DNA of 21,680 bases from a virus: the IMG/VR virus record IMGVR_UViG_3300025138_009789, positions 1 through 21,680 of that record, one strand, 5' to 3'. The stretch's first letter is position 1; each line of letters starts with the position of its first letter. The translations under genes were made by a program, and so were the position numbers. The notes under the pieces are model-generated. The model made no database searches, was not told the origin of the DNA, and saw nothing but the letters and a program-made list of their open reading frames with translations. Shown here piece after piece: positions 1,819 to 20,450 of the stretch.

Positions 1819-2610
1819 TTATCTATTATTTAAATATTTTTTATATAAATTAGTACCTCTTTTTATATCATATTCTGGGTACCATCCAGGCACCCATTTA
1901 TTTTTATCGGCTTGTGTATAAAATTGATACCAAGATGGAATTTTACTTTTATCTGTATAGGTATACTTAATACCCATACCTTCTACTAAAGATTCAAATG
2001 ATTGAGCTTCTCCAGTACCTACATCATAAACTCCACTAGGTGAAGTAACAGATTGTAAATTAGCATTTATAATATCTTCAACATATATGAAATCTCTTAA
2101 TGGGTTATTTGGGAAAAGTTTTTGTTTACCATTTTTATAAGCTTGATACGCAATAGAGGACATTTTACCTTTATGTTCTTCACCCGGACCATATACATTA
2201 AAATATCTTAAAGCTATAAAATTACCTCCTTTAGCTACACCATATTCTTCAGCTAATTTTTTAGACCAACCATAAATGTTATTAGGTATATCATCCCCAT
2301 TTCCATAATTTGCAGCTGAAGAAGAATATATTATTTTTTTATTTAATTTGTAAGCATAATCTATTAATATTTTACTAAACTCATAATTGTATAATAACAT
2401 TTTTCCGCTATCTTGTAAAGTAGTATCTGATATTGCCCCTACATGGAATATAATATCGTTATTTTTTACTTTATTATATAATTTTGTTTTCCATAAGGGA
2501 TCATCTAAGTAATCCATTTCTAGGGAATCTACATTATATTTATCAGCTATTAATCTATTAAATAAATTTTTACCTATAAAACCTCTATGTCCTGTTACTA
2601 GTATTTTCAT
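1819..2610 (-). CDS. hldD: HldD-like ADP-heptose 6-epimerase (NAD-dependent SDR family)
   Basis: Extended short-chain dehydrogenase/reductase resembling HldD, which converts ADP-D-glycero-D-manno-heptose to the L-glycero form. Visible features are the Rossmann motif GHRGFIG at residues 7-13, HVGAISDTT at 56-64, a serine-rich catalytic strand YSSSAANYG at 95-103, the YxxxK pair Tyr113/Lys117 in YGWSK, and RYFNVYGPGEEHKG at 135-148. The last motif, followed by a KM-SSIAY segment and RDFIYVEDI, is characteristic of HldD rather than GalE-type epimerases. At 263 residues it is shorter than E. coli HldD (310). Its ATG overlaps the kinase stop as ATGA, so translation is coupled; it is the last gene of the sugar cassette. 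The exact substrate in this phage is inferred. Confidence 0.8.
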   Translation of the reverse strand: MKILVTGHRGFIGKNLFNRLIADKYNVDSLEMDYLDDPLWKTKLYNKVKNNDIIFHVGAISDTTLQDSGKMLLYNYEFSKILIDYAYKLNKKIIYSSSAANYGNGDDIPNNIYGWSKKLAEEYGVAKGGNFIALRYFNVYGPGEEHKGKMSSIAYQAYKNGKQKLFPNNPLRDFIYVEDIINANLQSVTSPSGVYDVGTGEAQSFESLVEGMGIKYTYTDKSKIPSWYQFYTQADKNKWVPGWYPEYDIKRGTNLYKKYLNNR

Positions 2611-3338
2611 ATTATTGATACTCCTTTTTTTTCTATTACTTTAAGTGAACAATTTTGTGCAAAATAAATACTATTACTTATACTTCTTTTATGAGCTAAA
2701 TAATGATATATAAAAGCAGCAAAGAATGTATCTCCAGCTCCCGATAAATCTGAGACTTCTGCCTGTCTAGATGGGGGATGGATTAATTTATTCCATTTTA
2801 CACCTTTTTCTCCTAAAGTAACTATTAATTGTCCTCTATAATCTATTAAATTTGCTTTATTTTTTTCATATTCAGGTTGATTTATTTTTATAAATGAAGC
2901 ACCCATAACCCACTTTCCGAATACTTTTTTAGAATCAATAAAAGTTAAAGGATATTTGTCAGTCAATTTTTTAATATCTTCTTCATGTAAAAATCCTTTA
3001 TCATAGTCACTAATGATTACAACATCATATTTTCCTAATTTATCTAAACCCTCAAACCTTTCACATTGGTCATTATCATCAATTCTTACTAACATTTGGT
3101 TAGTTTTAACATCTATTATTCTAGATTTTAAAATCTTATTTTTGTTAGTAATAAAATCTACCTCATATTTTTCTTTATTAAGGCTTAAAAAATTATTTAA
3201 AACATTTTTCGCCATTCCACCATTTTTAGTAGAATTAATTGGGCTAAATACAGGTACAGGTGCTTCTGGGCAAATCCTTTTACATTCTCCATAAATGAAT
3301 TCATCAGTACAACTATCTCCTATTATTAATATTTTCAT
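2607..3338 (-). CDS. PfkB-family sugar kinase, HldE N-terminal domain-like
   Basis: Ribokinase-fold kinase most like the first domain of HldE (RfaE), which phosphorylates D-glycero-D-manno-heptose 7-phosphate at O1. The N-terminus GDSCTDEFIYG followed by RICPEAPVPVF (residues 21-31) and NGGMAKNV is the HldE pattern. ISDYDKGFL (109-117) and the INQPEYE segment match HldE motifs, and SGAGDT (199-204) carries the anion hole and catalytic base Asp203. At 243 residues it is shorter than the HldE kinase domain (about 315) and has no fused nucleotidyltransferase; that activity is a separate gene at 4031-4423. ATGA overlaps couple it to both the cupin gene and hldD. Kinase family certain, heptose substrate likely. 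Confidence 0.8.
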   Translation of the reverse strand: MKILIIGDSCTDEFIYGECKRICPEAPVPVFSPINSTKNGGMAKNVLNNFLSLNKEKYEVDFITNKNKILKSRIIDVKTNQMLVRIDDNDQCERFEGLDKLGKYDVVIISDYDKGFLHEEDIKKLTDKYPLTFIDSKKVFGKWVMGASFIKINQPEYEKNKANLIDYRGQLIVTLGEKGVKWNKLIHPPSRQAEVSDLSGAGDTFFAAFIYHYLAHKRSISNSIYFAQNCSLKVIEKKGVSII

Positions 3339-3697
3339 AATGTATCTCCTATTCTAATTCTATAACTATCTTCGTCAAAATGTTGTGTTGATACCTCAAA
3401 TATTTCTGACATATCTTCTAATGCTATTAATTGGTGTGGTTCCTGTCTATCTATTGTTAAACAAGTTCCTTCATGTATAGTCTTTTTAATTTCAATCCCC
3501 TTTACAAGGTCTAAATAGATATATGTAAACGAACCTTTAGCTACATACCAACTTTCTTTTTTTATAATGTGGTAATGTAAAGAAAATTTATTACCTGCTT
3601 TAAAAAATCTAAGTAATTTACCACAATATTCTTCATCATTATGAATCCATATTTCTTCACCCCATCCTTTTTGTACAATTTTTGGTTTAACTATCAT
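3335..3697 (-). CDS. Small cupin protein, phosphomannose isomerase type II-like
   Basis: A 120-residue single-domain beta-barrel cupin. Metal-binding residues of the family are visible: HYH at 41-43, Glu48 in the KKESWYV segment and His88 in EPHQL. The opening KGWGEEIWIHN and FEVSTQHFDEDSYR are typical of the C-terminal cupin of mannose-6-phosphate isomerase/ManC proteins. It starts at an ATGA overlap with the HAD gene and ends in an ATGA overlap with the kinase gene. In the cassette it could act as a sugar-phosphate isomerase, thus filling the GmhA step that is otherwise missing, or as an epimerase or sensor; the sequence does not decide between these. Confidence 0.75.
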   Translation of the reverse strand: MIVKPKIVQKGWGEEIWIHNDEEYCGKLLRFFKAGNKFSLHYHIIKKESWYVAKGSFTYIYLDLVKGIEIKKTIHEGTCLTIDRQEPHQLIALEDMSEIFEVSTQHFDEDSYRIRIGDTL

Positions 3698-4044
3698 AAT
3701 TCTTCTATACGTTTAGCCTTATCATCTATAATTAGATCATAAGATGGTTTTGTTGGTAATGTAATATCTTCTTTGTAACCTACCACGAGATCATCAAAAA
3801 GACATCCCCACTTATTTAATTGTTTTAAAGTTAATTCAGTATAATCAATTTTACTAAAACCACCTCTAGCTGTATAATAGGTTATATGCCATCCTTCTTT
3901 TTTAAGTTTATTTATTTTAGCTATATTATCAATGCTAGGGATTGCTTTTTCATAGATTCTTTTACTTGCATAAAAACATATTGTTTCATCAATATCTATA
4001 AAAGCTTTTTGTTGACCCTTAGAATTTAATTTACTTTCTCTCAT
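3694..4044 (-). CDS. HAD-superfamily phosphatase
   Basis: A 116-residue haloacid-dehalogenase-fold hydrolase without a large cap domain. Motif I is FIDIDET at residues 15-21, with nucleophile Asp17 and acid/base Asp19. Motif II is the threonine in YYTARG (Thr58), motif III is probably Lys99, and motif IV is IIDD at 105-108. Such small HAD enzymes occur in capsule and LPS sugar pathways. In this cassette the obvious role is removal of the 7-phosphate from heptose bisphosphate, the GmhB step, but there is no GmhB-specific zinc-binding cysteine loop, so that role is inferred from neighbours. It overlaps the upstream nucleotidyltransferase by 14 bases and the cupin start by ATGA. Confidence 0.75.
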   Translation of the reverse strand: MRESKLNSKGQQKAFIDIDETICFYASKRIYEKAIPSIDNIAKINKLKKEGWHITYYTARGGFSKIDYTELTLKQLNKWGCLFDDLVVGYKEDITLPTKPSYDLIIDDKAKRIEEL

Positions 4045-4423
4045 TTTTTAAAATGTTTGTAGTTGAATATTGAGAAATCCTTTCGAAGAATAAAACTTTT
4101 TTAGCAAACCGTGCACCTACAACATCTCCACCTCTCCAATCACTTCCTACTACTAAAATATCAGGAAAGTAAAAGTTAATCAAACCCTCTAATTCTATTC
4201 TAGAATTAAAAGAAACAACTTTATCAATATATTTTATAGATTGTAATGCAAATATTCTATCTTGAAGATTATTATAAGGTCTATCTGGGCCTTTATCTTG
4301 TGATACTTTAAAATCAGTATCTACCCCAACAACTAGTTCATTTCCTAATGATTTAGCATATTTAAATAATTCAAAATGACCTCTGTGAAGTACATCAAAA
4401 CAACCGTTTACCCAAATTTTCAT
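4031..4423 (-). CDS. Cytidylyltransferase-fold nucleotidyltransferase, HldE C-terminal domain-like
   Basis: Transfers a nucleotidyl group to a sugar or polyol phosphate. GCFDVLHRGH at residues 7-16 contains the intact HxGH catalytic motif (His13, His16), and ISQYSTTNIL at 116-125 is the C-terminal motif that closes on the nucleotide. PDRPYNNLQDR (46-56) and PDILVVGSDW (87-96) resemble HldE domain 2, whose product is ADP-heptose, more than glycerol-3-phosphate cytidylyltransferase. At 130 residues it is a stand-alone domain. It is the first gene of the five-gene overlapping cassette and lies 14 bases after the 155-residue protein gene, so it probably shares the polymerase transcript. ADP versus CDP specificity cannot be read from sequence alone. 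Confidence 0.8.
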   Translation of the reverse strand: MKIWVNGCFDVLHRGHFELFKYAKSLGNELVVGVDTDFKVSQDKGPDRPYNNLQDRIFALQSIKYIDKVVSFNSRIELEGLINFYFPDILVVGSDWRGGDVVGARFAKKVLFFERISQYSTTNILKNERK

Positions 4424-4437
4424 AACCTATTTTTACT

Positions 4438-4905
4438 TTATAACTCTATAATTTTATATATTTTTGTATTTAATTGATTTAATTCATTATGTTGGGTAAG
4501 TAAAACACAATTTCTATAATGTTGCCAATCTACTTTGTAGCTTGTATCAACAACTCCACCATTAAGCTTTTTAATAAGTTCATTTAAAGCATTAATAGTA
4601 TATAAGGTATTAGATTCCTTTTTTCTATGTACTAAAATAGTATTATCTGGGATATAATTTAAATTAGTTTGGTCGACATTATATGTTATTACATATTCAT
4701 CTTTACCAACTATTTCTAGTACAAAAAGTTTATTGTATATAATATCATACTTAGCTTTTATATCTTCAATGAGTGCATCCAACCCATTTAAATCAGTAAA
4801 TGTACAAAAAAGTTTATTATTCAAATCTCCTAATATTTTAATGTCTGATACGACATCATATTCTGCATTATACATATTGGGATTATTCTGTAAAATTGTA
4901 GTCAT
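4438..4905 (-). CDS. Unknown 155-residue protein resembling the polymerase N-terminus
   Basis: No family recognised. Its first part, from LFCTFTDLNGLDAL through AKYDIIY (residues 32-57), lines up with the adjoining polymerase at FMVCVTHSEGLNAL through SKFDILY (54-82), sharing the Cys, GL-x-AL, an Ile and DI-x-Y with one 3-residue gap. A further YIPDN/YFPNK match follows in both. No catalytic motif, signal peptide or membrane segment is visible. Its start overlaps the polymerase 3' end by 23 bases, so the two are co-translated. It could be a polymerase accessory subunit descended from a duplication of that N-terminal domain; this is inference from a weak alignment. Confidence 0.7.
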   Translation of the reverse strand: MTTILQNNPNMYNAEYDVVSDIKILGDLNNKLFCTFTDLNGLDALIEDIKAKYDIIYNKLFVLEIVGKDEYVITYNVDQTNLNYIPDNTILVHRKKESNTLYTINALNELIKKLNGGVVDTSYKVDWQHYRNCVLLTQHNELNQLNTKIYKIIEL

Positions 4906-6154
4906 AACCTTTTATTTCTTTAATGTTTAATTTATATTTTTTAAATATTTCTCTAATTTTATCTAAAATTTCTATTTCCTTATCATCTATATCTAATAAA
5001 AACGAATCATAAGTATATAATACTAGTTTCGTTTTGCACCCCCTTAATATACGACACATATCCCACAATATCAACACATTTGTAGATGTTTCTAAGTTTT
5101 GTAAAATGTAATTAAATAACTTTTGTGGATTCATATTATCTAAGTTTTCTTTTTTATATCTATATCCAGAAACCTCACATTCTACAAACCCATCTCTTTG
5201 AAACTTACTCCAAATTTCTCCTACGTATTTTTCTACTTTTTGAAAGAATTCCAGGCTTTTATAATTTTCAAAAACGCCACCATAGAGTTGTTTGAAAGTA
5301 AGTTCTTTCGATTTTTTATAATCCACTTTATATAAGGAAGCAAAATGAGCGTGAATATCAACATTGGCAAAATCATAACCAACGAGACGAGCAGCCAAAC
5401 TAGGATGGTAAGCACTAATATCCATCTCCATAAACCTATTATTACGTGGTATAAAACTTTTTCTACATCCATTTTCTTTATTAAGTGCTGCATAATTTAC
5501 ATTTTTAAATTTATTTGAGGGACGTGTTGTTGTTGTTTTTAGGTTGAACTGAGTGTGGACGTATTCACCGTCAACTGCGTGGAAGTATTCACTGAAGGTT
5601 TTATTATGTATACGTATGCCATTTCTCTCGATGGCGTTGAATACCATGGATACTCTACTGTTAAAGAACTCATCATATTTTGTTTTTTTATTGTTAATAT
5701 TCGTTTTTAGATCCTCAAAAATTGTCTCACACAATTCATAGTGTTTAACAATAGGTATAATTAAATTTAACTCCGGATTATCTTTGTGTTGTCTATAATA
5801 TAATTCGTGTGTTGGTGTTGTTGGTCGTATATATGTATGAGGAGGTGGATTTATGTCATAAAGAGCTTTGTTTGGAAAATAATGTAATATTTCTTTTTTA
5901 TCACGGCAATACAATATATCAAACTTCGATATTAATGCGTTTATACGCGCGTTTAACGCATTCAAACCCTCGCTATGCGTAACACATACCATAAATCCTT
6001 TACGCGCGTTAATCGGGCGTAAGTACACTAATGAAATATCATTTAAAACAGGGTGAATATTGTTGTTATAAGGAATGACTTCAATGAATGCCTCTTTATA
6101 ACCACTATTTATTAAAACCTCTATTTGCTCCTCGTCTTCTACTAACCAATACAT
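4883..6154 (-). CDS. Divergent family A DNA polymerase (polymerase domain)
   Basis: Template-directed DNA synthesis, probably the phage replicative or repair polymerase. Motif B has KELTFKQLYGG (283-293), with Lys283, Phe287 and Tyr291 in the family A spacing, preceded by VDIHAHFASLY (265-275), equal to the DIHxxTA segment. Motif A is DISAYHPSL (245-253) and motif C is TYDSFLLD (381-388), keeping both catalytic aspartates Asp245 and Asp383. Unlike E. coli Pol I, the steric-gate glutamate position holds His250 and motif C reads YDS rather than HDE. The protein has only 423 residues; the first 150 show no recognisable 3'-5' exonuclease DxE motif. It has its own promoter-like element upstream and overlaps the next gene. 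T4 itself uses a family B enzyme, so this is a replacement. Confidence 0.8.
   Translation of the reverse strand: MYWLVEDEEQIEVLINSGYKEAFIEVIPYNNNIHPVLNDISLVYLRPINARKGFMVCVTHSEGLNALNARINALISKFDILYCRDKKEILHYFPNKALYDINPPPHTYIRPTTPTHELYYRQHKDNPELNLIIPIVKHYELCETIFEDLKTNINNKKTKYDEFFNSRVSMVFNAIERNGIRIHNKTFSEYFHAVDGEYVHTQFNLKTTTTRPSNKFKNVNYAALNKENGCRKSFIPRNNRFMEMDISAYHPSLAARLVGYDFANVDIHAHFASLYKVDYKKSKELTFKQLYGGVFENYKSLEFFQKVEKYVGEIWSKFQRDGFVECEVSGYRYKKENLDNMNPQKLFNYILQNLETSTNVLILWDMCRILRGCKTKLVLYTYDSFLLDIDDKEIEILDKIREIFKKYKLNIKEIKGYDYNFTE
5934..6012. repeat. CpG-rich patch with dyad and repeated ACGCGCGT palindrome
   Basis: An 8-bp inverted repeat, AATGCGTT at 5934-5941 and AACGCATT at 5955-5962, surrounds TACGCGCGTT (5944-5953), and the same 10-mer recurs at 6001-6010. 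The 8-base palindrome ACGCGCGT is thus present twice, 57 bases apart, in an otherwise AT-rich region. It lies within the 5' part of the polymerase gene (residues about 48-74). It may be a protein-binding site or just arginine/alanine codon use; no function can be assigned. Confidence 0.4.
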
Positions 6155-20015: not shown

Positions 20016-20450
20016 TTATTCATTAATTAAATTGGGATTTTGTTTAATAGTTTGTTTTGTAATTAAATTTTTTATTTTAGTTGTTGACCATTCATGTGAA
20101 CGGGTAGTATAAATAACCTCAATAGGTAAATCTTTACCTGTAAAATCTTTTCCTAAATAATCTTCCCCTAATATTCTTATATTTGGTTTCCAAAACTTCA
20201 TTAATTGTAATAAATCATCTTCGGTTTTATAAGTATAAACCGCATCAATATATTTTATTGCCATTAGAGTTTTATATCTTTCATATAAAGGAACTACTGG
20301 TTTGTATTTATTGTTTCTATATTCAGAAGGATCTGCATGTAAAAATACAAAAAATGTATCACAATGTTTCTTTGCTTCTTCAAATGTATAAATATAACCT
20401 GGGTGTAGTAAATCAAAGTTACCTGCTGTAAATCCTAGTTTATTTTTCAT
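20016..20450 (-). CDS. Cytidylyltransferase-fold nucleotidyltransferase with altered HxGH motif
   Basis: A 144-residue member of the glycerol-3-phosphate cytidylyltransferase/HldE-C fold. GNFDLLHPGY (10-19) aligns with the catalytic HxGH motif, but the second histidine is Tyr19. KPVVPLYERYKTLMAI (50-65) matches the family's substrate loop, GEDYLGKDF (95-103) the mid-region, and EWSTTKIKNLI (120-130) the C-terminal STT motif. The loss of the second His, normally important for catalysis, means activity is uncertain or uses a different residue. The gene is followed by the tail module and preceded by a glycosyltransferase-like gene, so it probably supplies an activated sugar or polyol for surface decoration. 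It is clearly different in sequence from the nucleotidyltransferase at 4031-4423. Confidence 0.75.
   Translation of the reverse strand: MKNKLGFTAGNFDLLHPGYIYTFEEAKKHCDTFFVFLHADPSEYRNNKYKPVVPLYERYKTLMAIKYIDAVYTYKTEDDLLQLMKFWKPNIRILGEDYLGKDFTGKDLPIEVIYTTRSHEWSTTKIKNLITKQTIKQNPNLINE

Follow-up and report, generated by a model that had tools for sequence, protein, structure and literature searches.

A mobile phage cassette that probably encodes a nucleotide-activated heptose pathway, with a cupin as candidate phosphoheptose isomerase

The window analysed here, a whole stretch of 21,680 nucleotides identical to a virus record that is a 21.7-kb fragment, carries beside its replication genes a cassette of five genes, which in our judgement probably constitutes a compact and mobile pathway for a nucleotide-activated heptose destined for a surface glycan, with a small cupin as its candidate isomerase. 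Sequence or structure supports the families of the kinase, the epimerase and the nucleotidyltransferase (NT), the integrity of the catalytic residues and the purifying selection acting on the genes, and a nucleotide heptose is the likely class of product. In the proposed pathway, the cupin would convert sedoheptulose 7-phosphate of the host into D-glycero-D-manno-heptose 7-phosphate, which the short HldA-like kinase would phosphorylate at C1; the small HAD phosphatase would then strip the 7-phosphate from the bisphosphate, and the NT would couple the heptose to a nucleotide, presumably from ATP or CTP. In the window phage, the HldD-like epimerase would finally act at C6, turning NDP-D-glycero-D-manno-heptose into its L-glycero form, and glycosyltransferases of phage or host would put the sugar on a surface glycan, the likeliest target being the envelope of the infected host, with virion tail fibres as another possibility.

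The five genes are complete open reading frames that follow each other on the minus strand from 4423 to 1819: an HldE-C/HldC-like NT (4031-4423, 130 aa), a small HAD phosphatase (PHROG 1238; 3694-4044, 116 aa), a single-domain cupin (PHROG 7851; 3335-3697, 120 aa), a short PfkB kinase resembling HldA/HldE-N (PHROG 8133; 2607-3338, 243 aa) and a short HldD-like NAD-dependent epimerase (1819-2610, 263 aa). The frames of the NT and the HAD overlap by 14 bases and the three remaining junctions by four bases each (ATGA), exactly as the original prediction had described them. Since every protein of the cassette has family matches, the reading frames are not due to chance. Directly downstream lies gp32 (913-1743), recognized by its Pfam match and followed by uvsX, while upstream there are a frame of 155 aa and a fragment of a polymerase-like gene (4883-6154), the match of which to PHROG polymerases is weak (28 bits); the location between polymerase and gp32/uvsX is thus borne out. 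The tail sheath, which is the sole hint to the host, is closest to that of Flavobacterium phage immuto (55% identity over 72%), and therefore the host of the virus is probably a member of the Bacteroidota.

The kinase is well supported, by both profile and predicted fold, as a short subfamily of the HldA/HldE-N type that is nearest to HldA, in accordance with what had been proposed for it. It matches rfaE_dom_I with 113 bits versus 37 for ribokinase, its family profile finds HldA among PDB entries with an E value of 7e-26 (next match, 3e-10), and the seven best Foldseek chains for its AlphaFold2 model (pLDDT 93.5) are all HldA; moreover, the motifs R..PEAPVPV, K-x-R, R-x-D, SDY-x-KG and GAGD are kept. 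The HldD-like nature of the epimerase holds equally: the HldD model TIGR02197 gives 182 bits versus 44 for galE, the maximum-likelihood tree places the protein within a clade of 34 HldD rows with support of 99/99, and residues Y113, K117 and K147 correspond to Y140, K144 and K178 of Escherichia coli HldD (aligned to 1eq2), the equivalent of K178 being missing from relatives that are not HldD. This evidence needs to be read together with the curated cut-offs, which the epimerase (182 vs 274.6 bits for TIGR02197), the kinase (113 vs 345 bits for TIGR02198) and the NT (102 vs 181.5 bits for TIGR02199) all fail to reach. The epimerase is hence well supported as a diverged and shortened relative of HldD rather than an equivalog and, because none of the three proteins attains its cut-off, we class all of them by sequence as diverged relatives of heptose families, not members. 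The profile comparisons with heptose families that had been suggested return these families as the best match for all three enzymes, short of their curated thresholds, and give no such result for GmhB and GmhA.

For the NT, the support for a heptose reading is fair. As had been anticipated, the best family is that of HldE-C, with 102 bits for NCBIfam rfaE_dom_II versus 76 for glycerol-3-phosphate cytidylyltransferase (TagD), and this is consistent over the 34 members of the NT alignment, all of which match both models. Its motifs, GSDW and R..STT, resemble those of TagD, whereas most bacterial HldE-C relatives that were compared have GGDY or GADY and a Phe or Leu in place of the Arg. In addition, the best PDB match is ethanolamine-phosphate cytidylyltransferase, and the NT tree, built on few columns and showing long branches, cannot settle the nucleotide. 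Given the TagD-like GSDW and Arg motifs, the 'ADP' of the ADP-heptose originally predicted becomes an assumption, and either ATP or CTP could be the nucleotide used. The separation of kinase and NT into two genes is not unusual, stand-alone HldA and HldC genes being ordinary.

The HAD protein stands further from the known pathway. Its best PDB match by profile is a 'capsule biosynthesis protein' (9iqw, E 1e-21), with E values of only 0.4-0.5 for GmhB, and on this ground we assign it to the EcbF/BcbF 'capsule phosphatase' type rather than to the GmhB family. It nonetheless looks like an active phosphatase, the catalytic motifs DxD, TARG, K and DD being kept in 30 relatives, so that it may still work in the manner of GmhB; the step once attributed to it could stand, while the family could not. 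The label 'phosphoheptose isomerase' attached to PHROG 1238 is a misnomer, for its proteins are HAD phosphatases.

Equally a misnomer is the label 'cysteine dioxygenase' of PHROG 7851, the family of the cupin. This protein has a complete and invariant metal site of three His and one Glu (H41, H43, E48 and H88) and its AlphaFold2 model (pLDDT 93.9) shows a cupin fold, different from the fold of GmhA. Its neighbours in structure include the phosphomannose isomerase of an archaeon (7zvy; Z 15.1, rmsd 2.0, 105 residues aligned) and a D-lyxose isomerase (7nzo; Z 13.9, rmsd 2.0, 109 aligned), with which CapF, KdgF and other cupins of unrelated function tie at equal Z. A profile search of PDB sequences returned oxalate decarboxylase as the best candidate, which was rejected because its E value of 0.02 is not significant. 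In profile searches of the Pfam/NCBIfam type, none of the five cassette proteins matched SIS or GmhA, and since the isomerase is the only step with no other candidate, we propose the cupin for it.

How does this assignment fare when the distribution of the cupin is considered? In a search of 50,697 phage records, all 35 that bear the cupin also have a heptose-7-phosphate kinase (a count read from two match lists in which many rows are near-identical isolates). In 31 of these records the kinase is HldA-like, while in four (Bellamy twice, SynMITS9220M01 and AG-345-E15) a D-glycero-D-manno-heptose-7-phosphate kinase of HddA type lies beside the cupin. HddA-like kinases belong to the GHMP family and are unrelated to the PfkB kinases resembling HldA; three loci (L018-L020) show the order HddA-cupin-HddC, where bacteria have HddA-GmhA. 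Being common to both branches, the cupin should act before they split, namely at the isomerase step. Conversely, GmhA (TIGR00441) is absent from 10 of 11 complete cyanophage records and from all 24 viral contigs, leaving one positive in 35, and is found in none of 33 further viral records that partly overlap with them. The GmhA of SynMITS9220M01 is weak (47 bits) and belongs to a second cassette, which lacks the cupin and has an HddA-like gene reaching 91 bits only; in the same phage the small HAD is fused to an NT, beside the weak GmhA and a kinase.

In cells the pattern is more mixed. Of the nine genomes of cellular organisms in which the phage-type kinase occurs, three contain the cupin alone, three GmhA alone, two (G025 and G026) both and one neither, suggesting that GmhA tends to take the place of the cupin, with exceptions; among 251 relatives, at the order level, of the genome containing the actinobacterial contig L035, one has the cupin and 13 have GmhA, never both, numbers that are too small to weigh much. 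Some bacteria possibly use the cupin for GmhA, an example being an actinobacterium with no detectable GmhA. Large viral records also deviate in both directions, since four of them (158, 221, 207 and 120 kb) have the kinase with neither cupin nor GmhA and three others (126, 101 and 84 kb) have the cupin with neither type of kinase. Many cupins lie outside cassettes, beside UvdE or thymidylate synthase, and most of the large records with such lone cupins carry the kinase elsewhere. Among the papers searched, none joins GmhA, cupin and heptose.

It could then be that a nucleotide heptose is made from heptose 7-phosphate supplied by the GmhA of the host, the cupin performing another step such as an epimerization or some tailoring. 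We regard this as rather unlikely, despite the equal Z scores of CapF and KdgF, the large kinase-positive viral records devoid of both cupin and GmhA and the presence of the two together in G025 and G026, because the association of the cupin with two unrelated kinases from different heptose branches indicates a shared step, the isomerase being the one that lacks a candidate, and three kinase-bearing cellular genomes have the cupin without GmhA. A cupin filling the isomerase step, as first suggested, thus gains comparative backing and, given the exceptions, keeps the status of a candidate: that the window protein is a non-orthologous phosphoheptose isomerase appears plausible from sequence comparisons, if tentative, and the broader idea of a second, unrelated class of sedoheptulose 7-phosphate isomerases, replacing GmhA in viruses and some bacteria for pathways of both HldE and HddA type, is to be held just as cautiously.

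The first four genes of the cassette recur in the same order, at the same site between polymerase and gp32, in four related phages (L001, L101, L102 and L183), while in L104 a group-1 glycosyltransferase occupies the place of HAD and cupin. All close relatives seen (L001, L002, L101, L102, L103, L104 and L183) are devoid of the epimerase at this site, so the survey of gene order that had been advised confirms the NT-HAD-cupin-kinase series without its end, and the epimerase would appear to be an optional last step. The NT is 62% identical to that of two relatives and 85% to that of a third, while the HAD is evenly 85-87% identical to those of the same three, which may be a sign of NT allele exchange. 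For these genes, dN/dS values are 0.10-0.40 per gene pair, which is similar to or slightly higher than the 0.15-0.18 of gp32; the cassette is thus under purifying selection, which shows selection for function.

All five families are found as linked genes in the cyanophages P-SSM2 (genes 309-313), S-CAM1, S-CAM3, S-SSM7, S-SM2, P-TIM68 and Sf-FS3, occur also in single-cell viruses, and are very common in viral contigs, at least 600 stretches of which have the kinase and at least 600 the cupin. Four of them (T4-GC 304, 305, 307 and 308) were already noted to co-occur in three phages and thought to be functionally linked, a role as 'stuffer DNA' being left open for the LPS genes of cyanophages (Sullivan et al. 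2010, PMC3037559); rfaE has been mentioned as an LPS-related auxiliary gene of pelagimyophages (PMC7029224). The cassette is therefore not the novelty that it first seemed. What is new is the finding of this known cyanophage-type set at another site in a different phage lineage, together with the bacterial operon described below, the cupin accompanying two unrelated kinases, the near-absence of GmhA, the optional epimerase and the purifying selection. The gene comparisons indicate that the cassette moves horizontally, changing both its place in the genome and its gene content, which is what non-functional stuffer would also do; its dN/dS values and the integrity of all catalytic motifs make that explanation barely credible.

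In other phages, the set is found next to genes for tail fibres or the neck, or next to clusters of glycosyltransferases. This bears on the idea, also raised originally, that the activated sugar modifies phage DNA instead of a surface glycan, which would fit the place of the set between polymerase and gp32. Such a position is peculiar to the present lineage and lends no support to a role linked to replication; considering also that no DNA glycosyltransferase was seen within the window and that the bacterial version of the set lies beside a GT9 gene, we find DNA modification very unlikely and a surface glycan the probable end use. No heptosyltransferase was identified within the window.

That bacterial version is found in L027, a Bacteroidota MAG contig (a kind of sequence that can be misbinned), where the same short kinase and GSDW-type NT precede, in an apparent operon, a canonical HldD (374.8 bits, above the cut-off of 274.6) and a GT9 heptosyltransferase. 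In S-SM2, P-TIM68 and L035, the set is instead adjoined by transketolase-like and Zn-alcohol dehydrogenase genes. Combined with the TagD-like motif of the NT and the short, diverged kinase and epimerase scoring below curated cut-offs, these neighbours could mean that heptose enzymes were recruited for some other product, either an NDP-sugar (such as one activated with CDP) or an NDP-polyol. This seems improbable to us, considering the company of HldD and GT9 in L027, the HldD catalytic triad kept in the epimerase, the lack of transketolase-like and dehydrogenase genes in cassettes of the window lineage and the replacement of the kinase by HddA in three phages.

Should the nucleotide-heptose reading be true, an abundant gene set of marine phages now described as 'LPS or stuffer' would become a defined pathway and two widespread misnomers, those of PHROG 1238 and PHROG 7851, would be corrected. 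As a possible non-orthologous substitute for GmhA, the cupin lends itself to direct testing, and the identity of the product would allow testing whether such phages remodel the surface of their host during infection.

Among known systems, the cyanophage set T4-GC 304-308 has the same five families as the window, linked and often overlapping. Its epimerase gene, however, mostly lies on the other strand or at a distance, whereas in the window it overlaps the kinase; the set sits beside tail fibres or hli genes rather than at the polymerase/gp32 site, its host is a cyanobacterium, and its proteins are 30-61% identical to those of the window. Archaeal phosphomannose isomerase and D-lyxose isomerase are small cupins with a complete metal site and a fold near that of the window cupin, which has no significant sequence match to the cupin aldose-ketose isomerases and scores equally with other cupins. 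The bacterial ADP-heptose pathway shares with the window the families of kinase, NT and epimerase as well as the HldD catalytic residues, but it has GmhA and a HAD of the GmhB family where the window has a cupin and a non-GmhB HAD, and its kinase and epimerase are longer. The pathway for GDP-D-glycero-alpha-D-manno-heptose (GmhA, HddA, GmhB, HddC) employs a GHMP-family kinase and a guanylyltransferase, in contrast to the PfkB kinase and HldE-C-like NT of the window; it is nevertheless between HddA-like and HddC-like genes that the window cupin family sits in Bellamy, SynMITS9220M01 and AG-345-E15, with a small HAD nearby in the first two.

The polymerase-like gene (4883-6154, minus strand) encodes 423 amino acids only and has a weak PHROG match; it may correspond to a single piece of a split polymerase or belong to an unusual one. 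Between it and the cassette nucleotidyltransferase lies, on the same strand, an ORF of 155 amino acids without assigned family (4438-4905), which keeps this position in same-site relatives. In L104, a close relative of the window, a group-1 glycosyltransferase (L104:1175-2284) replaces the HAD and cupin genes, and the interval between polymerase and gp32 is therefore a variable slot.

The PHROG names of these two cassette proteins look wrong: PHROG 1238 (3694-4044) is titled 'phosphoheptose isomerase' and the protein is a small HAD phosphatase, while PHROG 7851 (3335-3697) is titled 'cysteine dioxygenase' and the protein is the cassette cupin. Relatives of the HAD occur in 376 phage records, many from T4-like phages of enterobacteria and Acinetobacter. 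Cupins close to that of the window also stand alone in L189, L207 and similar viral contigs, adjoining genes for UV-damage endonuclease-like, thymidylate synthase or NadR-like proteins.

Among cellular sequences, contig L035 carries a set of genes in the order nucleotidyltransferase, cupin, ADH, transketolase-like, kinase, epimerase and HAD (L035:4163-9858), and no GmhA is detectable in its MAG. The label of this 1.4-Mb genome, Bifidobacterium breve, is probably wrong; its chromosome looks actinobacterial, and the bacterium carrying these heptose genes probably has no LPS.

A second, diverged nucleotidyltransferase of the cassette family (20016-20450, minus strand; 29% identical to the first) probably belongs to a second sugar locus. 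Its upstream neighbors at the window end are a 341-amino-acid protein that has no assigned family and a fragment resembling hexapeptide repeats. The closest relative of this nucleotidyltransferase (44%) is the nucleotidyltransferase half of a HAD-nucleotidyltransferase fusion in the cyanophage SynMITS9220M01 (L019:16003-16755). The fusion, next to which lie a GHMP kinase and a weakly matching GmhA, ties the small HAD to nucleotide-heptose synthesis.
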